Source of the DNA: an uncultured Clostridia bacterium
GTDB lineage: Bacteria > Bacillota > Clostridia > TANB77 > CAG-508
DNA length: 36,249 nucleotides
Direction: 5' to 3'
NCBI GenBank assembly: GCA_947626765.1
Contig: CANQTQ010000014.1
Coordinates: 1 to 36,249 of the forward strand
Position numbers and translations under genes: made by a program. Below, one piece after another: positions 4,720 through 21,764 of the stretch (position 1 is its first letter; each line of letters opens with the position of its first letter). The notes under the pieces are model-generated. The model did no database searches. It was not told the origin of the DNA and was given only the letters and a program-made list of their open reading frames with translations.

Positions 4720-4748
4720 AAGACTTACTCACAATTTGAGTAAGTCTT
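4720..4748. terminator. Bidirectional intrinsic terminator
   Basis: AAGACTTACTCA and TGAGTAAGTCTT make a 12-bp stem around CAATT, with A-runs on one side and T-runs on the other. It can end both the rightward HTH gene and the leftward operon finishing at 4759. Confidence 0.85.
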
Positions 4749-10400: not shown

Positions 10401-10829
10401 TTAAAATGGTAAATCGTCATCATTTGTAAGTTCTTCATTTTCTACTATAGAATTTTTATCTTCACTAGTATTGCTTTTATCAATGTTTCCTGTATCTTCA
10501 TTATTATTTTTTAAAGTATCTGCAAAGTCAATTTCTTCAGCAATAACTTCTGTAACATAGTGTTTATTCCCATTGGAGTCTTCATAATTACGAGTTTGTA
10601 TTTTACCTGAGACACAGATTTGAATCCCTTGCTTTAAATATTTTTCTACAAAGTCAGCTAATTTTGAATAAGTAACTATAGTAATAAAATCAGCTTGTCT
10701 TTCTTCTCCTGGTTTTACATATTTTCTATTTACAGCAAGTGTAAATAATCCTACTTTTGTGTTTGTAGCTTGTAAAAATCTGATATCTGGATCTTTTGTA
10801 AGTCTTCCTAATAAAATTGTTTTATTCAT
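10401..10829 (-). CDS. ssb: Single-stranded DNA-binding protein
   Basis: This is an OB-fold SSB of 142 residues. It starts MNKTILLGRLTKDPDIRF, has the core strands VGLFTLAVNRKY and ADFITIVTYSKLADF, and a disordered acidic linker from about residue 105. It ends in DDDLPF, the tip that recruits partner repair and replication proteins. It would coat the single strand made during transfer or rolling-circle replication. AAGGAAGG precedes the start. It lies downstream of an S6-like gene, mimicking the chromosomal rpsF-ssb order, but inside the mobile element. The frame stays open after the stop for another 25 codons. Confidence 0.95.
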   Translation of the reverse strand: MNKTILLGRLTKDPDIRFLQATNTKVGLFTLAVNRKYVKPGEERQADFITIVTYSKLADFVEKYLKQGIQICVSGKIQTRNYEDSNGNKHYVTEVIAEEIDFADTLKNNNEDTGNIDKSNTSEDKNSIVENEELTNDDDLPF

Positions 10830-11219: not shown

Positions 11220-11519
11220 TCAATCCTTTCTTCTTTTAATTTTTTTAACAGTTATAAATTTAAGTATTTCGTCTGTTATTATATAAATTCTTTCTAATTC
11301 TGATATCTTTTCGCTTTTCATACTGCACTGGATAATATAGTAATGTCCTTCAGAATGTCCTTTTACTTCATAAGCTAATCGCCTTTTTCCTAAATTTTCA
11401 ATTTTACTTATGTTTCCATTGTCTGTAATATAATTTTCTATTTTTTTAGCAACTTTTTGTCTTTCACTTTCTGTATAATCATCACTATTCATAATGAAAA
11501 TTGTTTCATAATCATTCAT
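11220..11519 (-). CDS. rpsF: Ribosomal protein S6 (bS6) paralogue
   Basis: This 99-residue protein follows bS6 along its whole length: NDYETIFIMNSDD, the central NLGKRRLAYEVKGHSEGHYYIIQ strand pair, and the closing DEILKFITVKK. bS6 binds bS18 and 16S rRNA in the platform of the small subunit. In most bacteria rpsF-ssb-rpsR form one operon. Here an rpsF copy precedes ssb but no rpsR is present, and all neighbours are mobile-element genes. Most likely the pair was captured with ssb, giving the element its own S6, or the protein has a new role. A second chromosomal copy would be expected. Confidence 0.88.
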   Translation of the reverse strand: MNDYETIFIMNSDDYTESERQKVAKKIENYITDNGNISKIENLGKRRLAYEVKGHSEGHYYIIQCSMKSEKISELERIYIITDEILKFITVKKIKRRKD

Positions 11520-11969: not shown

Positions 11970-12771
11970 TTACCATAAAGAAATTTGATTATTTCCTTTT
12001 ACGATAATTTCTTTAAATAAATTTTGATTTGGTATTGTTTTTTCAGCAATAGTTTTGTTTTCACAATGACTTGATATAGTTGATGTATTTTCACTATTAT
12101 TTATATAAAATTCTCTAAATTTCCAATATTGTAGAAAGAAAAGAGGAGTTTCCATTTTAAAATATATTTGCCCACTTATAGTATTTCCACAATATACAAC
12201 AGCAGGAATTCCATATAAAGATAATTGAATATATGCCATATAAGCGCATGTACTAGAAATATCAGTAGCTTCTACAAGTAGTTGATGTTGATAATTAATA
12301 TTATGCTTTTTTAATACTTTTGCGAAAGATAATATCATACCGACCAGCACCACAAGTAGGCTCTGCCATTGATATAAAACCTTTTTCTGCAATAATTTTG
12401 CTTAGTTTATCTTCTTCTATATTAATTTCTGCCATAAAATCAGATATGTGAGATGGTGTAAAAAATTGTCCTAGTTCACCATTGCCTAAGTTTTCTTTTT
12501 CATAAAAAAAACCTAAAATATCTAGTATTTGAGCTGATTCTTCATAAGCCATAACTAATTCAGAAAACATTTTGCAGAACATTTCTTGTTCTCCGGTTTT
12601 ATAAGTATTAATTATATTTAGATATTCTTTTTCCATGTCCTGATTTTTAGCAAATGAATTATATATTGATATTGCACACATTTTTACAAAGTCTGCAAAA
12701 ACATTATTGCCATAAGTAGCTGATAATTTATGATATATATTTGTAAAATTTTTTAAATGTTCTTCATACAT
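11970..12771 (-). pseudogene. N6-adenine-specific DNA methylase, split by a one-base frameshift
   Basis: The first frame (start ATG at 12769-12771 after AAAGGA) reads MYEEHLKNF and leads to GELGQFFTP and the SAM-binding motif AEPTCGAG, then runs off into 14 unrelated codons. The +1 frame carries on with GMILSFAKVLKKHNINYQH, EATDISSTCAYMAYIQLSLYG and GNTI, the body of the methylase. Skipping one base (G12342; C on the coding strand) gives EPTCGAGGMILSFA, the expected motif I. The NPPF/Y catalytic motif is not seen, as in some small element-encoded methylases. The joined protein would be about 267 residues. Its role would be to mark element DNA against host restriction. Confidence 0.8.
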
Positions 12772-12796
12772 TTTTAATCCTTTCATTAAATATAAT

Positions 12797-12823
12797 AAAA
12801 AGACAGATTTCTCTGCCTTTTTT
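12797..12823 (-). terminator. Hairpin between ATPase and methylase genes
   Basis: On the minus strand AAGGCAGA pairs with TCTGTCTT (one G-T pair) around GAAA, followed by T-rich sequence. It lies inside the leftward operon, so it may act as a partial terminator that lowers expression of the distal genes. Confidence 0.6.
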
Positions 12824-12824
12824 A

Positions 12825-14657
12825 TTATGCTGCTTTTGAAATTACTGCAGCTTGATTTTTATTTATTTTCATTGTTCTATAGCTTGATATAGTAGGCTTA
12901 ATAATTGTATAATTTTCCTGGTTGTTGTAATCTGATATTTTAAGAGCTTGTCCTTTTTGAACTTTTGCTATAAAAAGTTGTGTATCTTTGCAATATTTAT
13001 TAATAAAGTCATAATCTGCACAGCTTTCATAGTCATCAATAAATAATGGAAAATTAACTCTACTAATTTTATTAAACATATTAGCAAATTCTAGTGCAGT
13101 TGCCATTTTTTCAGACCTAGATAAATCAGTTAGAATATTATTTTTGTAAGTAATAACAAAATCTTCTTTGATTTCTCCAGTTCCTTTCAATACTGAGTAG
13201 TATTTGATATTAACATCTTTTAAATAATTTTTAGCAATTTTCATTTTTTCTTCAATATATAATATGTAAAGTTTTTGGGCTACTTTTTTTGATTTATTTG
13301 CTAATTCGATACATTTATTATGAAGTTGTTTTTGCTTATTAAACTTAGAAATATCAGAATTTGCATTATCAATATTTTTTTGTTTTGTTGCTATTTGGCT
13401 ATTAAATTTTTCAATATCTAGTTTTTCATTTTCTAGTTGTCTAATATTTTCTTGAATGATAGTAATTCTTTTGCTTTTTTCAATAATGGGTTCTCCATCC
13501 AATGCATGATATTTACACCTTTCTATAGATAGTTTAGACTTTAAATCTTTTAGTTTGGCTTGCAATATATTATTTTTATCATAATAGCTAAGTAACTCTT
13601 TTTTCATATTAATTATTGATATATTTTTACTAATGCCTTGAATTTGCTGATTACAAGTAGGACAACAAGAAGATTCACCATTTTTTATTGAATAGTATTT
13701 TTTCTTCCCATCTTCCATTTTCTTTAAAAGTTCATGGCTTTCTGTTTCTTTTTCTAATATTTCTTTCTCTAAATCCTCTACTATTTTCTTTTGATTTTGC
13801 TTATTAATTATTCCCTCATTTCTATTTAAAAGGTCTAATTCCTGTTTCGCAAGTGCTAATTCTTCCTCTTTTTCAAATACCTTATAGTCTGGTAATTCTT
13901 CACTTGCTATATTTTTTGCATATTCAATTTTTCCATCTAATATAGAAATAGTATTCTCTGACTTTTTTATTTCTTCATTTATTTCAGAAATATATGTAGG
14001 TATATCTCGAGGTATAGCTTCTAAAATTTTTTGTTCTTCTTTACTTAGATTATTATAGGAAATATCCATTGGAATATTTAACATAGTAGTATTTATAAAT
14101 TCTTCTTGCTCATCTGCAGTAAGTTCCTCATATCTCTTATTTTGCTTATAGTATTTATTTATAAGCTTTTGCTGTTTTTCTTGGCTTAAAGAATCAAATA
14201 TTACTTTTGGTCTTATATCAGATAAATATGAATCTACCATTTCTTTTTGCTCTGCAGGTTTTTTAGATAAAAAATATAGTGGATTTATTATTGATAAAAA
14301 TAATTTCTTGTCCTTATAAAAGTTAATTAAATCTGTTTGTTTAACACTTTTTCCATCTAAAGTGATAAAATTCATATTATTATCGTATTTATGCTTTCCA
14401 CGAATTAAAACATGATGGATTCCTCTATTATCAGTAAAGTGTAACTCACCATAAGAAGCATCACACTTTTTATTGATTAAACAAGTTTTTTCATCTCCAG
14501 ATAGATTTGTTCCTAGCATTATATTAACAATGGCATATAAAATATTACTTTTACCAGACCTATTTTTACCAGTGATATTAGTAATATCATAACATTTTGC
14601 TTCAAACGATTTTTCAAACTTTCTAAAACCAATAGTTTTAATATAATCAATTTTCAT
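12825..14657 (-). CDS. Rad50/SbcC-like AAA ATPase with zinc hook
   Basis: This 610-residue protein has a Walker A motif at residues 30-37 (GKNRSGKS). Two coiled-coil arms (about 205-320 and 345-455) flank a zinc-hook CPTC at residues 332-335, and a Walker B-like FPLFIDDYES lies near residue 530. This is the head-coil-hook layout of Rad50/SbcC/SMC-like ATPases, shortened to element size. Chromosomal SbcC is about 1000 residues and works with the nuclease SbcD; no SbcD partner is visible here. It probably binds or remodels DNA ends or forks during element replication or counters host defence. The protein ends in KAA. GGAG-type site upstream supports the start. Confidence 0.85.
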   Translation of the reverse strand: MKIDYIKTIGFRKFEKSFEAKCYDITNITGKNRSGKSNILYAIVNIMLGTNLSGDEKTCLINKKCDASYGELHFTDNRGIHHVLIRGKHKYDNNMNFITLDGKSVKQTDLINFYKDKKLFLSIINPLYFLSKKPAEQKEMVDSYLSDIRPKVIFDSLSQEKQQKLINKYYKQNKRYEELTADEQEEFINTTMLNIPMDISYNNLSKEEQKILEAIPRDIPTYISEINEEIKKSENTISILDGKIEYAKNIASEELPDYKVFEKEEELALAKQELDLLNRNEGIINKQNQKKIVEDLEKEILEKETESHELLKKMEDGKKKYYSIKNGESSCCPTCNQQIQGISKNISIINMKKELLSYYDKNNILQAKLKDLKSKLSIERCKYHALDGEPIIEKSKRITIIQENIRQLENEKLDIEKFNSQIATKQKNIDNANSDISKFNKQKQLHNKCIELANKSKKVAQKLYILYIEEKMKIAKNYLKDVNIKYYSVLKGTGEIKEDFVITYKNNILTDLSRSEKMATALEFANMFNKISRVNFPLFIDDYESCADYDFINKYCKDTQLFIAKVQKGQALKISDYNNQENYTIIKPTISSYRTMKINKNQAAVISKAA

Positions 14658-14981: not shown

Positions 14982-16112
14982 TTATGCTGCTATTTTTTTT
15001 ATATGTTTTTCTACAAATTCTATATTCGTTGCAAATTTCTTGTTTTGAGCTTCTTGAAGTTGCAATTTCATAACAGAACCAAGCTCACATTCTAGTAATT
15101 CGTCTTTGAAATTAGGATGAATATATATATTTGAAATTTGATCATTCATATCTGTAAATTCTCCAACCAAATATTCTTTAGGTTTACCATTAATTATAAG
15201 ATTTTGTATTTGAGTATTTAATAGAACATAACAATCAGCATATTCATCTATTATTTCCTTTTGCTTATCTTTATTTTCGACTTCCTTTGTTGTTTTATTT
15301 CCTTTTATTACATTCTTTGTAGTGTCTTTTGACTTAGTACTTTTTTTTGTTACTTCTTCAGTTTTAGCCTTAGCAGTATTTTTCTCTGGTTCAATAGGAG
15401 TAATTTTTTCTGCACTACTAGTTGCTGTTTCATTACTTTTTAAAGTTGTATTTTCTTGTTGATTTTCAGTAGGTTCTGGAATTGATTTTTTTGAAATAAA
15501 TTCTTCTTTTAAAATAATATCAAGAATATAATTATTAAAAGTATTGCCATTAAAATTAGTTTGTTCTTTTTGCTGTAGAAATATTGTATATAGATTATTT
15601 AAAGAATTTCCCTGTGATTTTTGAAATTCTATGTATCCATCTAAATTATCAATTGACTGTTGCCCTGTAATCTTCATTAACCAAATTCTGTCATTAGATA
15701 TTTGTGGAATAATGAATTTTAACCAAGCAATTCGATTACATAGAGATTTCCCATTTTCATCTTTTTGACGATAACTACAGTCTGATTTACATTCAATCGG
15801 TTGCCATAGGTTTTTAACTTTTTGTCTCCCTACAGTTTGATTTTTTAAACAATAACATGCTGCTCCACCTTGATTATATCGTTCTTGCTTTACTGATAAT
15901 GGTCTATCTCCTACTAATTTAATATCGAGACTTTTAACTTGTTTAAACATTTTATTAAATTTTTCTAAATATGGTTTCATATTTTCTTCTTGAATTTTTG
16001 CTATAAAATAACCATATTCTTTTGTTCTTTGCTTACCATTAACCAATACTTTTTCTCCATGTTGTATTCTACCTATAATTGGTAAGTTTTTAAATTTTTT
16101 ACTTTCTTCCAT
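14982..16112 (-). CDS. gp3-like (recombination-directionality-factor-like) zinc protein
   Basis: The N-terminal half starts LPIIGRIQHGEKV and contains a Cys cluster (CKSDCSYRQ then SLCNRIAWLKFIIPQI) followed by WLMKITGQQSIDNLDGYIEF. This pattern is shared with phage gp3-like proteins, some of which act as recombination directionality factors; the match is from memory and moderate. A Lys/Thr-rich low-complexity linker (about residues 205-275) joins a C-terminal domain with no recognised motif. The frame is open from 16151, but AGGAAGG just before the ATG at 16110-16112 marks the start (376 residues). It ends in IAA. It lies 14 bases after the 119-residue gene. Confidence 0.55.
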   Translation of the reverse strand: MEESKKFKNLPIIGRIQHGEKVLVNGKQRTKEYGYFIAKIQEENMKPYLEKFNKMFKQVKSLDIKLVGDRPLSVKQERYNQGGAACYCLKNQTVGRQKVKNLWQPIECKSDCSYRQKDENGKSLCNRIAWLKFIIPQISNDRIWLMKITGQQSIDNLDGYIEFQKSQGNSLNNLYTIFLQQKEQTNFNGNTFNNYILDIILKEEFISKKSIPEPTENQQENTTLKSNETATSSAEKITPIEPEKNTAKAKTEEVTKKSTKSKDTTKNVIKGNKTTKEVENKDKQKEIIDEYADCYVLLNTQIQNLIINGKPKEYLVGEFTDMNDQISNIYIHPNFKDELLECELGSVMKLQLQEAQNKKFATNIEFVEKHIKKIAA

Positions 16113-16126
16113 TTTTCCTTCCTTTC

Positions 16127-16486
16127 TTATGCAGCAACTGCTTGCATACAATATTGCTTTTCTGATACTTTATTTAAATCAATTCTATATATAGGATAGA
16201 TAGAGCTATTGACAACACAAATTCCAGTTTGCTCTTTTAAAATTCCAAGTTTTAATAACTGAGGTATCATATTAGGTCTATATTTACAGTCAACTACGAT
16301 TTCATTGTCAGCTAGTTCTTTTTTACTTTGATTTAATGTAATATCAGCAAAATGTGCAGTTTCATTGGTTCCTGGATCAGTTCCAAATAGTGATAGTTGC
16401 AGATTTCCATTAGGGTATCTTGAATTAAAAATAAAACAATTTTCAAACATTATTTCATATAATTCAAAATTAAAACCATTTTCCAT
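16127..16486 (-). CDS. First gene of the leftward operon, conserved hypothetical
   Basis: This 119-residue protein contains GNLQLSLFGTDPGTNETAHFADITLN, a strand pattern that loosely recalls the DUF4313 protein at 10850, and a CKYRPNMIPQLLKLGIL helix. The function is unknown. AAAGGAG lies eleven bases before the start. A 406-base gap packed with hairpins lies upstream, so this is where the long leftward transcript should begin. The protein ends in VAA; its stop region (GCTGCATAAGAAAGG) recurs at the 3' end of the DUF3846-like gene. Confidence 0.6.
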   Translation of the reverse strand: MENGFNFELYEIMFENCFIFNSRYPNGNLQLSLFGTDPGTNETAHFADITLNQSKKELADNEIVVDCKYRPNMIPQLLKLGILKEQTGICVVNSSIYPIYRIDLNKVSEKQYCMQAVAA

Positions 16487-16892
16487 AAATTAATTTCTCC
16501 TTTCATACTTTTGTGTAAAAGATTTTTTTAAATATCCTCCTTTCTTCTATTTTTGGGCAAAAAGAAAAAGTAATCAATTTAGTAGATAGGGGGCACTACT
16601 ATATTTATTACTTTTTTCTTTTATTTTTTGACACAACAAATAATCTATATATTTATTGGACTTATACCCATTTTTTGCTACATTAAAAAATGTAGATGTA
16701 CTACTATCAACTATATTTGATAGCTATGCCACAAATAATATTGTGGGTAGTTATAGAAAAATCTATAACATAATCTTTATACACAAATATATTTTATAAG
16801 TTCTATTATTTGATTTCAATAAACACACTAAAAAAAATTAAAAAGCTTATTTTTGTAACTTTTTAGACATTTTATATATCTTTTTAATTAGA
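16487..16892. other. Hairpin-rich intergenic region (candidate origin, oriT or structured leader)
   Basis: No gene was found in this 406-base gap. It holds a long imperfect stem (16559-16574 with 16607-16622) enclosing AGTAG...CTACT, and then four consecutive short hairpins: 16678-16695 (CTACATT/AATGTAG), 16704-16723 (CTATCAA/TTGATAG), 16729-16746 (CCACAA/TTGTGG) and 16750-16769 (GTTATAG/CTATAAC). Such dense hairpins are seen at single-strand origins, oriT regions and in structured RNA leaders. On the minus strand they would precede the leftward operon. Which of these applies cannot be told from sequence alone. Confidence 0.6.
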
Positions 16893-17473: not shown

Positions 17474-17503
17474 AAAAAGAGTAACTTTATTTGTTACTCT
17501 TTT
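17474..17503. terminator. Bidirectional intrinsic terminator between the two XRE genes
   Basis: AAAAGAGTAAC and GTTACTCTTTT form an 11-bp stem with a 7-base loop, flanked by A-rich and T-rich tracts. It serves both convergent regulator genes and overlaps the very 3' end of the repressor gene. Confidence 0.8.
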
Positions 17504-17841
17504 ATTTTTTTATTTATATAGCATCTTATATTACATATACATTTGTAATACATTTTTAGTTCTTCTTTATCACTATTATCAATTATACTATATAAGCTTT
17601 CTCTTACTTGAAGTTTCCTATTTTCGCCTTTACCATAAAGAATATAATCCATTTCTATACCAGTTGCAAAAGCAATTTTATCTAAAGTACTTAAACTTGG
17701 TAAAAAATCTCCTCTTTCAATTTGACCAATGTGCCTTTCTGTTAAATCACATCTTATTGAAAATTTTTCTCTTGATTCTTCAAAAATTTCTTCTCTTATC
17801 CTTCGTATTCTAGCTCCAATTACAATTTTATCTAATGCCAT
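17494..17841 (-). CDS. XRE-family repressor, probable master regulator of the element
   Basis: This 115-residue protein has an N-terminal XRE domain (IGARIRRIREEIFEESREKFS, then LTERHIGQIERGDFLPSLSTLDKIA, the conserved helix-turn-helix and dimer turn) and a basic helical C-terminal third. Such proteins are the ImmR/CI-like repressors of conjugative elements and phages. A strong GGAGGT precedes the start. It is divergent from the sigma-factor operon, and the shared gap contains paired operator-like repeats, fitting a repressor that controls its own gene and the excision module. No ImmA partner lies beside it; the ArdC-like zinc protease at 6360 is a distant candidate. Confidence 0.85.
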   Translation of the reverse strand: MALDKIVIGARIRRIREEIFEESREKFSIRCDLTERHIGQIERGDFLPSLSTLDKIAFATGIEMDYILYGKGENRKLQVRESLYSIIDNSDKEELKMYYKCICNIRCYINKKIKE

Positions 17842-17926
17842 TAATTTACACCTCCGAAGTCTATATATATGTATATTTTACATCCTTTAGCAAAAACACA
17901 ATATACTTTATTTATGGAAAAAGTCG

Positions 17927-18039
17927 TACTTTGTCAAAGTATGTCGAATTTTACAATCAGTTATTTTCGAGTAGTACAAAAATTTGCAGATATTTTTTCG
18001 ACATTGTTTGACAATATCACTGACAAAATTTGACAATAT
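17927..18039. promoter_or_regulatory. Operator cluster between repressor and sigma-factor leader
   Basis: TACTTTG-T-CAAAGTA is a 7-bp inverted repeat at 17927-17941. An 18-base sequence at 17931-17948 recurs in opposite orientation at 17997-18014 with two differences; each copy contains TGTCGAA, the consensus 0A box bound by Spo0A. TTTGACAATAT occurs at 18007-18017 and 18029-18039, 22 bases apart (about two helical turns), and includes -35-like TTGACA. Likely binders are the XRE repressor or a Spo0A-type protein. Confidence 0.65.
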
Positions 18040-18069
18040 TTTTAGATAAAATTTTATATACTCTGCCAT

Positions 18070-18173
18070 AAGGGCTTAATATACCTGTTTTAAGTAGAGC
18101 ATATCTACAAAAGATATATTCTAAGATACTTATGACGAGAGTATTAAATACTTTAACAGGACTTTACGCCCTT
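18070..18173 (+). ncRNA. Structured leader RNA ending in a terminator-like T-run
   Basis: AAGGGC (18070-18075) pairs with GCCCTT (18168-18173), followed by six or more Ts. Inside, CCTGTTTTAAGTA (18084-18096) pairs with TACTTTAACAGG (18149-18160), and two hairpins sit within (ATATCT/AGATAT at 18101-18117 and ATACT/AGTAT at 18126-18144). The result is a branched RNA whose closing helix is followed by a T-run: the form of a transcription attenuator or riboswitch. I do not recognise the class. Confidence 0.6.
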
Positions 18174-18209
18174 TTTTATATGTTGAAAGGAGGTTTTTTA
18201 ATTTTATAT

Positions 18210-18263
18210 ATGTTCCACCTAAACAAGTATGTTTAGCCCAAATTGAAATTTGGGAGGGAACAT
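18210..18263 (+). promoter_or_regulatory. Three-way-junction leader that buries the sigma gene's ribosome binding site
   Basis: ATGTTCC (18210-18216) pairs with GGAACAT (18257-18263). Inside it are CTAAAC/GTTTAG (18219-18236) and an 8-bp hairpin CCCAAATT/AATTTGGG (18237-18254). The ribosome binding site GGAGG (18253-18257) straddles the junction, with bases in two helices, eight bases before the ATG at 18266. Translation of the sigma-like factor should therefore depend on opening this structure. Confidence 0.7.
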
Positions 18264-18265
18264 TT

Positions 18266-18649
18266 ATGAAAACACAAAAAGACTATAGGGAAGAGAAATT
18301 TGATAGTTATTTAAATAAAATTATCATTTTCTCTTCAAAAAAATATTTTAAAAAACAAATAAACATTTGTGATAAGGAAAAGACCATTGTAGATGATGAA
18401 GATGCGTCCACATCCTTACAAAAGATTTTTGCTACAAGTAACACATTTGACGAAATTGAAGACACTTTACAATTAAATAAAGCGTTAGAATCACTGTCTG
18501 CCATTGAGCAGTCGGTGATTTTTTTGCTTTTTAGAGAAGAATTAAGCCAAGATGAAGCTGCAGAAATATTAGAAATATGCTCAAAGTCAGTTAGTAGAAT
18601 AAAATTAAGAGCAATTAATAAATTAAAAAAATATTTGTTAGGAGATTAA
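18266..18649 (+). CDS. Sigma-70-like factor of the element
   Basis: This 127-residue protein carries a C-terminal sigma region 4-type HTH: ALESLSAIEQSVIFLLFREELSQDEAAEILEI and CSKSVSRIKLRAINKL (about residues 75-120). The N-terminal part starts MKTQKDYREEKFDSYLNKII and includes SSKKYFKKQ. It is similar in position and size to Tn916 Orf7-type regulators, which drive excision or transfer promoters. Full sigma factors have a region 2; here it is reduced, so a regulator rather than a complete sigma is possible. It is the first gene of a rightward set ending in xis and int, and its RBS lies in a structured leader. Confidence 0.8.
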   Translation: MKTQKDYREEKFDSYLNKIIIFSSKKYFKKQINICDKEKTIVDDEDASTSLQKIFATSNTFDEIEDTLQLNKALESLSAIEQSVIFLLFREELSQDEAAEILEICSKSVSRIKLRAINKLKKYLLGD

Positions 18650-18652
18650 AAA

Positions 18653-18832
18653 ATGGAAAAAGAAAGTTTATATGAATTAGGAAAATTAGCACAAGCAGGA
18701 GATGAAACTGCTATGCTTAAAATTATTGAACTTAAAAAGAAAATATTAAAAAAATATAGTTATGGAGATGAAGATAGATATCAATTTTTAATCATTAAAG
18801 TAATTGAGGGAATAAAAAGATACAAATTTTAA
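18653..18832 (+). CDS. Small helix-turn-helix protein (HTH_16-like)
   Basis: This 59-residue protein begins MEKESLYELGKLAQAGDE, a pattern of the HTH_16 family found directly after sigma-like genes in Tn916-type elements (the Orf8 position). The middle part (MLKIIELKKKILKKYSYGD) resembles sigma region 2 helices. GGAGA in the stop region of the sigma gene, three bases before its ATG, shows translational coupling. It may complete the sigma-like function of its neighbour. Confidence 0.7.
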   Translation: MEKESLYELGKLAQAGDETAMLKIIELKKKILKKYSYGDEDRYQFLIIKVIEGIKRYKF

Positions 18833-18908
18833 AATTTATGGTAGAAAAATGAAATTATAGTGGATGTATATAAAAGTGAAGGGCAATAAAAAGGAAGCAC
18901 TATATTTT

Positions 18909-18941
18909 AAAGGCAGGTAGGACAAGCTCTTATCTGCCTTT
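18909..18941 (+). terminator. Hairpin between HTH_16-like gene and membrane peptide
   Basis: AAAGGCAG (18909-18916) pairs with CTGCCTTT (18934-18941) around a 17-base loop that can add a few more pairs. A T-rich stretch follows weakly. It may lower expression of the downstream genes. Confidence 0.5.
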
Positions 18942-18968
18942 ATCTAAATTTTAGAAAGGAGATATAGA

Positions 18969-19139
18969 ATGGTTTTTAGGTTTTTATTATTAAGTCTTTC
19001 ACTAATTATAGTAACATTTATATTTGAGTTTCTAATACCAAAAATTAAACTAAAATATAGATTATATAAAGAATTAGAAACGAAAAGAAAAAGAGAAAAA
19101 GAATATAAGGAAATGATGAGTAAGTTAGAGATTAGATAA
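18969..19139 (+). CDS. Small single-pass membrane protein
   Basis: This 56-residue protein starts MVFRFLLLSLSLIIVTFIFE, a single membrane helix, and continues with a highly charged cytoplasmic-type tail (YKELETKRKREKEYKEMM). AAAGGAG seven bases before the ATG supports it. No family is recognised. Its position between the sigma-like module and the excision genes suggests an accessory role in the element. Confidence 0.7.
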   Translation: MVFRFLLLSLSLIIVTFIFEFLIPKIKLKYRLYKELETKRKREKEYKEMMSKLEIR

Positions 19140-19204
19140 ATTTCTAACTGATTTGTTATATCTAAAAAGTGTCGACAAAAAATTAACTAAAAGGTAATTA
19201 GAAA

Positions 19205-19627
19205 ATGGAAGTTTCAAAGGAAGATATTATTAATCTATATTATGAAAAACATTTAAAGGTAAAAGAAATTGCGGAAATACTTAATTGTTCTTCAGCATAT
19301 ATTACAAAAATTATAAAACAAGATTACAAATATATTAATGAAAAAGAATATAGAGCAAATAAATCAAAAATTAGTAGAAGAATTAGTCAAAATAAATTTG
19401 TAAAAGCAAAAAGAGAGCAAAGAAGAATAGATGATAATTATGCTTATGTAGAATCACAACATAGACAAGCAGTTGCAGAACTTTCAAAAACAAATCATTT
19501 AAGCAATGAAAATTATAGAAAATGGAATAGCAGTGCTTATATTTATAACCCTTCAAAAAGGAGGTATGAGTTCGACAGTAAACTTGGTCGCTCATATGAT
19601 GTTCCTAAATATATAAAAGAGAGGTAA
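19205..19627 (+). CDS. HTH protein with resolvase-like N-terminal domain
   Basis: Residues 1-45 form a helix-turn-helix (MEVSKEDIINLYYEKHLKVKEI, then AEILNCSSAYITKII) like those of resolvases and transposition regulators. A basic middle stretch (RRISQNKFVKAKREQRRIDD) and a closing pattern SKRRYEFDSKLGRSYDVP are shared with uncharacterised element proteins. It probably binds DNA in the excision/replication region. The site before the ATG (AAAAGGTAATTAG) is modest. Confidence 0.65.
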   Translation: MEVSKEDIINLYYEKHLKVKEIAEILNCSSAYITKIIKQDYKYINEKEYRANKSKISRRISQNKFVKAKREQRRIDDNYAYVESQHRQAVAELSKTNHLSNENYRKWNSSAYIYNPSKRRYEFDSKLGRSYDVPKYIKER

Positions 19628-19633
19628 AAAAGC

Positions 19634-19945
19634 ATGGAAGAAAAATTATTAAAATTATTTAAACTAGCAGATGCGCTAAATGAAAAACAAGACAAAGTAT
19701 ATGCACAAATTAATTATTGTGCAAATGATAGTAAAAAATTAGAAATTTCAATTAGATCAAAAGAGGATTTTTCATATGTTGAAAGATGTGAAATTCAACT
19801 ATCAAATAATCATATATTGAAATGGGACAATATCATTGGATTATTTGATAATTATGTAAAAGATATATCTGATGGAGAAAGTACAACAAATACTAAAACG
19901 ACACAATCTAAAAAAATAAAAAATGGATGTGAATTTGATGAATGA
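19634..19945 (+). CDS. Hypothetical protein upstream of excisionase
   Basis: This 103-residue protein reads MEEKLLKLFKLADALNEKQDK, then VYAQINYCAND and IQLSNNHILKWDNIIGLFDN, with a polar tail of Ser/Thr/Lys. It is found in the position just before xis in this type of element, but I recognise no domain. The start is ten bases after a GAGG site in the stop region of the previous gene. Its 3' end overlaps the excisionase start. Confidence 0.65.
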   Translation: MEEKLLKLFKLADALNEKQDKVYAQINYCANDSKKLEISIRSKEDFSYVERCEIQLSNNHILKWDNIIGLFDNYVKDISDGESTTNTKTTQSKKIKNGCEFDE

Positions 19946-20153
19946 TGAAGAAAATTTAGAAGAATATTGTAAAACAATATTTGCAGATTATCCAGATGTA
20001 GTAAAAGTAAATACACTTAAAGAAATGTTACCTAAAATAGGAAAAAACAAAATATATAAACTGTTGCAAGAGAAAGAGATTTTATCTAAAAGAATAGGTA
20101 GAGATTATTATATTCCTAAGATTAGCATAATAAAATATTTAACTAAAAAATAA
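19938..20153 (+). CDS. xis: Excisionase-like HTH protein
   Basis: From the start at 19938 this is a 71-residue basic protein with an HTH_17-like excisionase domain (NTLKEMLPKIGKNKIYKLLQEKEI, then RIGRDYYIPKISIIKYL). Excisionase bends att DNA so that Int can cut the element out. A start at 19923 (76 residues) is also possible, but GGATG sits just ahead of 19938. It overlaps the previous gene by eight bases and directly precedes int, the usual order. Confidence 0.8.
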   Translation: MNDEENLEEYCKTIFADYPDVVKVNTLKEMLPKIGKNKIYKLLQEKEILSKRIGRDYYIPKISIIKYLTKK

Positions 20154-20176
20154 AAGAGTTGTTTTCAGCATTGTAT

Positions 20177-20235
20177 AGCAAGTTAAACTTATGATATAAT
20201 CACTTTTAATGGTGATTAGATAAATTTAACTTGCT
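20177..20235 (+). terminator. Two-tier hairpin between xis and int
   Basis: AGCAAGTTAAA (20177-20187) pairs with TTTAACTTGCT (20225-20235), followed by a T-run, and an inner TAATCAC/GTGATTA helix lies within. It can end transcription after xis or act as an attenuator for int, keeping integrase low. Confidence 0.75.
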
Positions 20236-20253
20236 TTTTTGGAAAGGAGAAAA

Positions 20254-21582
20254 ATGATAACAGAAGCAAGAAATCAAAAACTAATTGATAGAATTAATAA
20301 ATTATCAGAAAATTGCATCATTTCAGATACAATTTCACATAGTTTACAAGAAAAAGATGGTGTATACCAATGTGTAATAAAATATCAGAAAAATGGAAAA
20401 TGGCAATCTTTTTGGGTTTCAACTGGCTATAAAACAAATTCTGGAAACCAAAGAGCTGCTAAAAATGTTGGCAGAGAAATAGAAGATATTTTTAGAAGTA
20501 CAATAAAAGAAAGCAAAGAAAAACAAGAAAACAAACAACAAAATCTTAATATTATAGATATACAAACTATGCTGGAATTAAATACTACAAATTATAATCC
20601 TGGTAAAGAAACAAAAGCTGATTGGGACTTTTATGAATATATGGAATACTGGTTAAACAAAATAATAATGCAATCAGTTGAACAAGATACTTTTAATGGT
20701 TATAAAAGAAATGTTACAGGATGGATGAAAAAATATTTTACTATGAATGAACATAAAAAAAGTGTAAAAGAAATAACTGCAGATGATTTAGATGACTTTT
20801 ATAGCTATTTGAGGGAAAACAATTTAAAAAATGCCACAATAGACCATTACAACGATAATATAAGCAGTGCATTTAAGTTTTTACTAAAAAAGAAATTGGT
20901 AAGATATAATCCAACAGATCTTGTCAATCCAATTACAGTAGAAACAATAGAAGTAGCGACATATACAAAATCAGAAATAGAAGAACTATTTAAAGTCCTA
21001 AAAGGTGATATTATAGAATTACCAACTTTAATTGCTGGGTATTATGGATTAAGAAGAAGTGAAATTGTAGGGTTAAGAAAAGAATCATTTGATTTTGAAA
21101 ATGATAATTTTATAGTTAACCATGTAGCAATTCAAAATGATGGAATAGAAAATGAGGAAAAAGTATATTTTAAAGATAAAACAAAATCTAAAAAAGGCTA
21201 TAGAACTTTTCCACTGTTTGCAGATGTTAAAAAAGTTATACTAGAGAGGTTAGAAAGAATAGAAGAAAATAAAAAAATTTTTGGAAACACTTATAATTAT
21301 AAATATAATGATTATATATGTGTTCAAGACAATGGAGATTTAATTCAACCAAGTTTTTTTACAAAACGTTTTTCAAAAATTATTGAAAGAAACAATTTAA
21401 GAAAAATAACACCTCACGGACTAAGACATAGTATAGCTACCTTATTACATTTGTCAGGAGTAGACATTAGAGATTTGCAAGATTGGTTAGGCCATGAAAA
21501 CATTACATCAACTAATAGATATACAAGAAGTGATTATAAGAAACAATTGCAAACACGGCAAAGCAGTTTTACAAATATTTGA
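20254..21582 (+). CDS. int: Tyrosine integrase of the tRNA-Arg element
   Basis: This 442-residue tyrosine recombinase has an AP2-like N-terminal arm-binding domain (VIKYQKNGKWQSFWVSTGY, about residues 35-60), a SAM-like core-binding domain (about 115-220) and a catalytic domain. The catalytic residues are Arg in YYGLRRSEIVGLR, Lys in KSKKGYRTFPL, HGLRH, WLGHENI and the nucleophile Tyr in NRYTRS. It integrates and, with Xis, excises the element at the 3' end of the tRNA. A TTG at 20239 keeps the frame open, but AAAGGAG right before the ATG at 20254 decides the start. It is convergent with the tRNA, whose 3' end faces it. Confidence 0.93.
   Translation: MITEARNQKLIDRINKLSENCIISDTISHSLQEKDGVYQCVIKYQKNGKWQSFWVSTGYKTNSGNQRAAKNVGREIEDIFRSTIKESKEKQENKQQNLNIIDIQTMLELNTTNYNPGKETKADWDFYEYMEYWLNKIIMQSVEQDTFNGYKRNVTGWMKKYFTMNEHKKSVKEITADDLDDFYSYLRENNLKNATIDHYNDNISSAFKFLLKKKLVRYNPTDLVNPITVETIEVATYTKSEIEELFKVLKGDIIELPTLIAGYYGLRRSEIVGLRKESFDFENDNFIVNHVAIQNDGIENEEKVYFKDKTKSKKGYRTFPLFADVKKVILERLERIEENKKIFGNTYNYKYNDYICVQDNGDLIQPSFFTKRFSKIIERNNLRKITPHGLRHSIATLLHLSGVDIRDLQDWLGHENITSTNRYTRSDYKKQLQTRQSSFTNI

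Positions 21583-21687: not shown

Positions 21688-21764
<77 letters not shown>

Follow-up and report, generated by a model that had tools for sequence, protein, structure and literature searches.

At positions 16487–16892 of a contig from an uncultured Clostridia bacterium (36,249 nt, analysed as a whole and called the window below), a cluster of hairpins separates a leftward operon from a set of regulatory genes, and the question is what these hairpins are for. A preliminary description had counted at least five of them in a gene-free region and had offered a structured RNA, a single-strand origin or an oriT, possibly acted on in trans, as explanations. The count and the absence of genes were both confirmed: the gap contains a single long imperfect stem, four short hairpins and no gene of at least 60 aa. 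The arms of the long stem (16559–16585 and 16596–16622) are 85% complementary. Folded as RNA, the gap gave z-scores of −5.3 for the minus strand and −3.7 for the plus strand, and folded as DNA −4.4 and −3.4; in each of the four runs (both strands, RNA and DNA) 0 of 100 shuffles equalled the real fold, which places it beyond chance. Two further copies of the RNA folded with z-scores of −6.5 and −5.3. All hairpins are parts of one minus-strand RNA of about 270 bases, from about 16785 to 16512, and are nested inside a larger fold that two long-range helices, P1 and P6, close (Table 1). Judged from sequence comparison, this is almost certainly a conserved structured leader RNA.

Table 1. Positions of the RNA, its signals and the neighbouring operon features in the window.
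Feature	Position	Strand	Remarks
−35 box TTGAAA	16814..16819	−	in conserved TATTGAA
−10 box TAAAAT	16791..16796	−	17-nt spacer
P1 5' strand TGTGTATAAAGATT	16772..16785	−	inferred transcript 5' end; complementary to 16512–16524
Hairpin P2, GTTATAG/CTATAAC	16750..16769	−	
Hairpin P3, CCACAA/TTGTGG	16729..16746	−	strong compensatory change: 100% of cells paired, both sides changed in 5 of 6 pairs
Hairpin P4, GCTATCAA/TTGATAGT	16703..16724	−	both sides changed in 6 of 8 pairs
Hairpin P5, CTACATT/AATGTAG	16678..16695	−	both sides changed in 5 of 7 pairs
P6 5' strand TGGGTA	16665..16670	−	pairs with TGCCCA
Hairpin P6a	16635..16657	−	two model helices, 81% and 93% of cells paired
Long hairpin P6b	16561..16620	−	C-rich loop 16589–16593, then U-rich run
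P6 3' strand TGCCCA	16554..16559	−	
GAAAGGAGGA	16535..16544	−	Shine-Dalgarno-like, without start codon
P1 3' strand AATCTTTTACACA	16512..16524	−	pairs with 16772–16785
Shine-Dalgarno site of first gene	16497..16504	−	by sequence
orf119, first operon gene	16127..16486	−	weak DUF4313 similarity
Recombination-directionality-factor (RDF)-like protein	14982..16151	−	PF18897, Gp3-like, E 6e-13
SbcC/RecF-like ATPase	12825..14657	−	
Intrinsic-terminator-like hairpin	12797..12822	−	inside operon, directly after SbcC-like gene
Terminator-like hairpin	4720..4748	−	end of operon

A DNA search of 194 related genomes returned eight long matches besides the window's own (73–84% identity, E < 1e-43); 103 of the 194 genomes pass E 0.001 in the same search, the shorter matches being treated as AT-rich chance. 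Alignment of the eight long matches revealed covarying hairpins, and a covariance model of the core, R1 (154 positions), was used for wider searches. R1 was found in 31 of 390 genomes from the window's family, in 27 of 385 genomes drawn from the order, one of them belonging to another family, and in 2 of 391 drawn from the class, both members of the window's family; there is overlap between the three draws, and the window's own genome is counted in them. A DNA pattern of the 3' end, run over the named genome collection, matched 55 stretches, 49 of which contain the R1 core (the six without it are L088, L101, L105, L108, L112 and L115; L102, with the core, is cut at its 5' end).

From 90 records, five of which lacked a recognisable 3' end and were dropped (L006, L036, L042, L049 and L062), 48 distinct full-length RNAs of 262–323 nt were obtained; these copies were partly selected by their 3' end, and separate counts were made on copies found independently. 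A coding function of the RNA was rejected on account of its ORFs, the longest of which are short and of irregular length over the 48 copies (5–63 aa in sense, 10–67 aa in antisense). The carriers are mostly recorded as uncultured Clostridia, many of them from animal guts by their sample names, and mostly carry the RNA once per genome. Among viral contigs, a protein query found no relative, and two DNA patterns hit 4 stretches and 1 stretch, none matching the R1 core model; distant blastn against phage and plasmid collections gave short matches only. The window and six diverged copies were searched against Rfam 15 with curated and with permissive thresholds; no relevant family was returned, and the only matches within the window were two tRNAs. 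No description of this RNA was recognised in the available parts of the literature; large surveys such as PMC8040213 could include it unnamed.

In the alignment of 38 distinct cores, standard pairs make up 96.3% of cells, compared with 89.1% in shuffles and 24–52% when partners were slid. Both sides are changed in 23 of the 35 core pairs (102 cells in total), and 0 of 500 shuffles attained any of the five measures used. The comparison of stems among relatives that had been suggested earlier was thereby carried out, and the stems proved to be kept with compensatory change, alongside many invariant junction and loop bases. Read on the minus strand, P2–P5 hold 26 G-U cells versus 5 A-C cells, an excess which argues that the minus-strand transcript is the structured molecule. 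One doubtful copy, L062 (50.6 bits), was kept in the covariation, G-U/A-C, neighbour-gene and 3'-end-independent counts, and the core of L044 is apparently shifted in the model alignment.

The two long-range helices differ in what the alignment can say of them. P1 is proposed as the closing helix on the basis of complementarity and conservation: the two arms complement each other in the listed copies, duplexes of cognate and of non-cognate arms have the same stability, and both arms are too invariant to give covariation information. P6, which encloses P6a and P6b, pairs TGGGTA-like with TGCCCA-like strands in most of the 46 copies scored, L046 and L048 of the 48 having been left out; its variants include AGGATA/TATCCT, TTAGGGTA/TACCCTAA and AGGGATA/TGTCCCT. 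Of 300 re-pairings 3 were equally good, and in L109 the best helix is a different one. The distal stem of P6b is variable yet still foldable in the printed copies. Taken as a plain terminator, P6b is weak on scoring, being positive in only 8 of the 36 copies scored (of 48), with a median of −19. Inspection by eye raised a possible pseudoknot in which GGAGG would pair with the C-rich P6b loop.

Signals for transcription are conserved too. TATTGAA occurs in 47 of 48 distinct full-length copies, mostly followed at a 17-nt spacing by a TAAAAT-like −10 box, and the distance from the end of this box to the first base of P1 is 5 nt in 46 of 47 copies. The promoter is likewise present in 35 of the 38 distinct copies whose detection did not depend on the 3' end. 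From this phasing we infer that the transcript begins at about 16785, the first base of P1. Near the 3' end, AAAGGAGGA occurs in 34 of 37 copies whose detection made no use of that sequence, the failing copies being L006 and L036, whose 3' part is missing, and the doubtful L062; a start codon lies near it in 1 of 48 copies. Invariant in intact copies, AAAGGAGGA may serve for ribosome docking or for stabilising the message. Past P1 the first gene has its own Shine-Dalgarno site, and the first start codon mostly lies 22–28 nt after P1.

Two of these incomplete copies were inspected individually. In L006 (G006:C18, 1740–1770) the RNA breaks off in the C-rich P6b loop and continues into what by eye looks like a reversed integrase 3' end, either a deletion or an assembly chimera. 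In L036 (G236:C5) the RNA lacks the 3' strand of P1, and the Shine-Dalgarno site of ssb occupies the usual place of the site without a start codon.

To describe the genomic context, neighbouring genes were compared over 53 distinct loci. The RNA stands at the head of the leftward operon (orf119/RDF-like/SbcC-like/.../S6/SSB/PcfJ) in 47 of them. Of these 47, 42 begin with orf119 and 5 with the RDF-like gene, which ties the RNA to the operon rather than to one gene. Among the remaining loci, ssb follows directly in L036, and neither orf119 nor the RDF-like gene was found in L006, L056, L062, L049 and L072, the last two of which sit at contig ends. Of 21 genomes that carry a close RDF-like gene, 20 show the RNA upstream, the exception beginning at base 1 of its contig; no RNA was found at the loci of eight genomes with distant or fragmentary RDF matches only. 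The orf119 product had no Pfam match above the cut-off and no PHROG or NCBIfam match.

Type IV secretion genes occur in related elements (T4SS-DNA_transf in G418; TraG P-loop and T4SS_pilin in G116), so these elements look like integrative conjugative elements or their remnants. On the window's contig no secretion gene was identified, and its genome carries two PF02534 genes on other contigs. The earlier remark that the window lacks a relaxase also stood, none being found among the window ORFs scanned and PF03432 being unmatched in the whole genome.

Several features of the element were recorded in passing. An S6 homologue (PF01250, E 1.6e-24) lies near the SSB gene (11220–11519 and 10401–10829, both on the minus strand), and S6 homologues are also present in other elements of the family. 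The N6 methylase-like gene of the window is split into two overlapping frames (11970–12392 and 12301–12786, minus strand) and is one ORF of 258–269 aa in the related elements G020, G358 and G418; by this comparison the window's gene looks frameshifted. On the other side of the gap, 17494–21582 encodes a helix-turn-helix protein, a sigma-70-like protein (18266–18649), a second helix-turn-helix protein and a tyrosine integrase beside a tRNA (21691–21764), a set that recalls the regulatory end of Tn916; G071 and G418 have, by eye, serine recombinases instead. An A-T-rich terminator-like hairpin at 17475–17503, with a plus-strand T run after it, lies between two convergent regulatory genes. A DDE transposase gene (PF13751; 2367–4067, plus strand) is located just past the operon's far end and may have replaced part of the element.

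Within the operon, prediction supports an internal terminator about 4 kb downstream of the RNA, at a conserved position. With a terminator score calibrated elsewhere, and therefore as a prediction only, the gap after the SbcC-like gene is positive (d > 0) in sense in 18 of 26 operons and in antisense in none of the 26; as a control, the gap that follows the RDF-like gene is positive in 1 of 38. The form GGC(A/G)G..CTGTC follows the SbcC-like gene in 15 of 25 loci. Seven of the eight long elements score positive in this gap, with G418 showing a different hairpin at the same place, so that the position appears to be conserved more than the sequence; the eighth element, G342, scores 0.4 as L070 in the 26-operon count. 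Over all 63 gaps of the eight elements, 9 were positive in sense, 2 in antisense and 0 after shuffling. The next start codon lies within a few dozen bases of the internal terminator, which leaves little room for a promoter after it.

A mobile-element operon that opens with a structured RNA and contains an internal terminator has the layout of known RNA antiterminators, and to our knowledge RNA-only antiterminators are few (put, EAR, canT and conAn2). We therefore propose, tentatively and at a confidence that stops a little short of probable, that this RNA is a cis-acting processive antiterminator resembling canT, conAn2 and put in its working; homology is not claimed. Transcription would start from a dedicated promoter (16819–16791, minus strand) at the first base of P1, and the first 270 nt or so would fold into P1 as the closing helix, P2–P5, and P6 around P6a and P6b. 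While the transcript runs on into the long leftward operon, the folded RNA would act in cis on the very RNA polymerase transcribing it and render that polymerase resistant to terminators. The genes past the terminator in the SbcC gap (methylase, S6, SSB, PcfJ and others) would then be expressed only from this promoter. The RNA, its strand, structure and promoter and its place at the operon head are supported by the alignments; contact with RNA polymerase, and antitermination itself, are what we infer from them.

In favour of antitermination, structure, strand, phased promoter and fixed operon-head place are all conserved, and the predicted internal terminator is sense-only. On the other hand, 8 of the 26 operons with the RNA show no positive-scoring terminator in the SbcC gap, and there is typically one internal terminator per operon versus more than 20 in pLS20, as given in the available part of PMC8955417. 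The proposal also leaves the invariant AAAGGAGGA unexplained; this site would be better accounted for by ribosome docking or message stabilisation, either of which could coexist with antitermination. No homology to conAn2 or canT was found, and with the U-rich run behind P6b the leader could instead be a conventional attenuator.

That last possibility is the strongest of the alternatives, although we consider it unlikely. An attenuator or riboswitch leader would sense a protein, a metabolite or the state of the element through its fold, and transcription would stop at the U-rich run of P6b or proceed. A long hairpin with a U-rich run behind it, as in the printed copies, and the invariant junction and loop bases beside covarying stems, are what such a leader would show. 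However, P6b rarely scores as a terminator, inspection revealed no competing antiterminator pairing, and the first gene differs between loci. Moreover, the 3' strands of P6 and P1 are conserved though they lie beyond the U-run, and the read-through form thus seems to be selected.

P1 and the invariant 3' site also fit a leader that stabilises its message, a reading we hold to be decidedly doubtful. P1, which starts at the inferred first transcribed base, would seal the 5' end, and the start-codon-less site would bind the 30S subunit, shielding the message from 5'-to-3' decay; AAAGGAGGA, invariant in intact copies and without a start codon, suits this role. According to the available part of PMC3997798, whose reference list names STAB-SD (cryIIIA), long messages of Gram-positive bacteria are stabilised by leaders in which a blocked 5' end is combined with a strong Shine-Dalgarno site that lacks a start codon. 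The present RNA resembles STAB-SD leaders in having such a site within a long leader, the stabilisation here being putative. However, the elaborate covarying P2–P6 fold would be left unexplained, the start site is inferred, and P1 is unproven by covariation. We know of no requirement for a covarying multi-helix fold in STAB-SD leaders.

A small RNA acting in trans seems improbable. It would be freed from the leader by an end or a cleavage after P6b, and the loop of P6b, C-rich in the printed copies, would pair with G-rich sites of other messages. Its place at the head of nearly always the same operon, its mostly single copy per genome and the lack of a clear terminator past P1 argue against such a role. 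More of a long shot is a new class of RNA in which a 30S subunit, docked via AAAGGAGGA on the nascent leader, would together with the fold keep RNA polymerase resistant to termination; an S6-like ribosomal protein encoded in the same operon would be in keeping with a function directed at the ribosome. Least credible of all is a single-stranded DNA site: of the options raised in the preliminary description, the structured RNA holds, through compensatory change, G-U bias and the phased promoter, and oriT and single-strand origin find no support, since the strand also folds as DNA but nothing needs single-stranded DNA, in the transcript sense G-U pairs are retained, unlike A-C pairs (DNA also forms G-T, more weakly), and the signals present are transcriptional, with a promoter phased to the first helix and a ribosome-binding site and operon directly after.

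If the antitermination reading is true, this antiterminator, with its covarying fold resolved and natural variants by the dozen, could be dissected by comparison and compensatory mutation, and RNA control of conjugative elements would extend to uncultured gut Clostridia. Among systems that invite comparison, the put RNA is smaller than this RNA. In the available description of HK022 putRNA (PMC9378689), put is an RNA of a mobile element's early operon that acts alone and directly on RNA polymerase, a role like the one proposed here. That polymerase is the one of E. coli, and the likeness considered is one of description. EAR is held in Rfam, unlike this RNA, which matches no Rfam family. It is an RNA antiterminator of the long eps operons of Bacillus, in Bacillota, named in the available parts of PMC8955417 and PMC11658703.

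Closer in setting are the RNAs of Gram-positive conjugative elements. R1 had no credible match in bases 1–50000 of pLS20 (best E 0.09) and no match in 50 kb of pCF10 including part of its Tn916-like insert, so our claim is that the RNA works like these systems, not that it is a member of them. The conAn system of pLS20 acts at the start of long conjugation operons with more than 20 terminators, according to the available part of PMC8955417, and like conAn2 the present RNA is found at the start of a long operon containing intrinsic terminators, here predicted. conAn consists of two parts, conAn2 RNA and the ConAn1 protein, whereas no ConAn1 counterpart was identified here, orf119 being at most a candidate. 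As described in the available part of PMC11658703, canT of Tn916 is a cis-acting RNA permitting read-through, with a function established by experiment, whereas function here is proposed from sequence. Situated downstream of Porf7, canT works across the junction of the circle once the element has excised, whereas the RNA reported here begins at a promoter inside the element, at the operon itself. Both are structured RNAs of Gram-positive integrative conjugative elements, canT acting in cis between promoter and terminator, and the sigma-like gene and helix-turn-helix regulators of the canT region, as far as PMC11658703 describes it, also have their like in the window.
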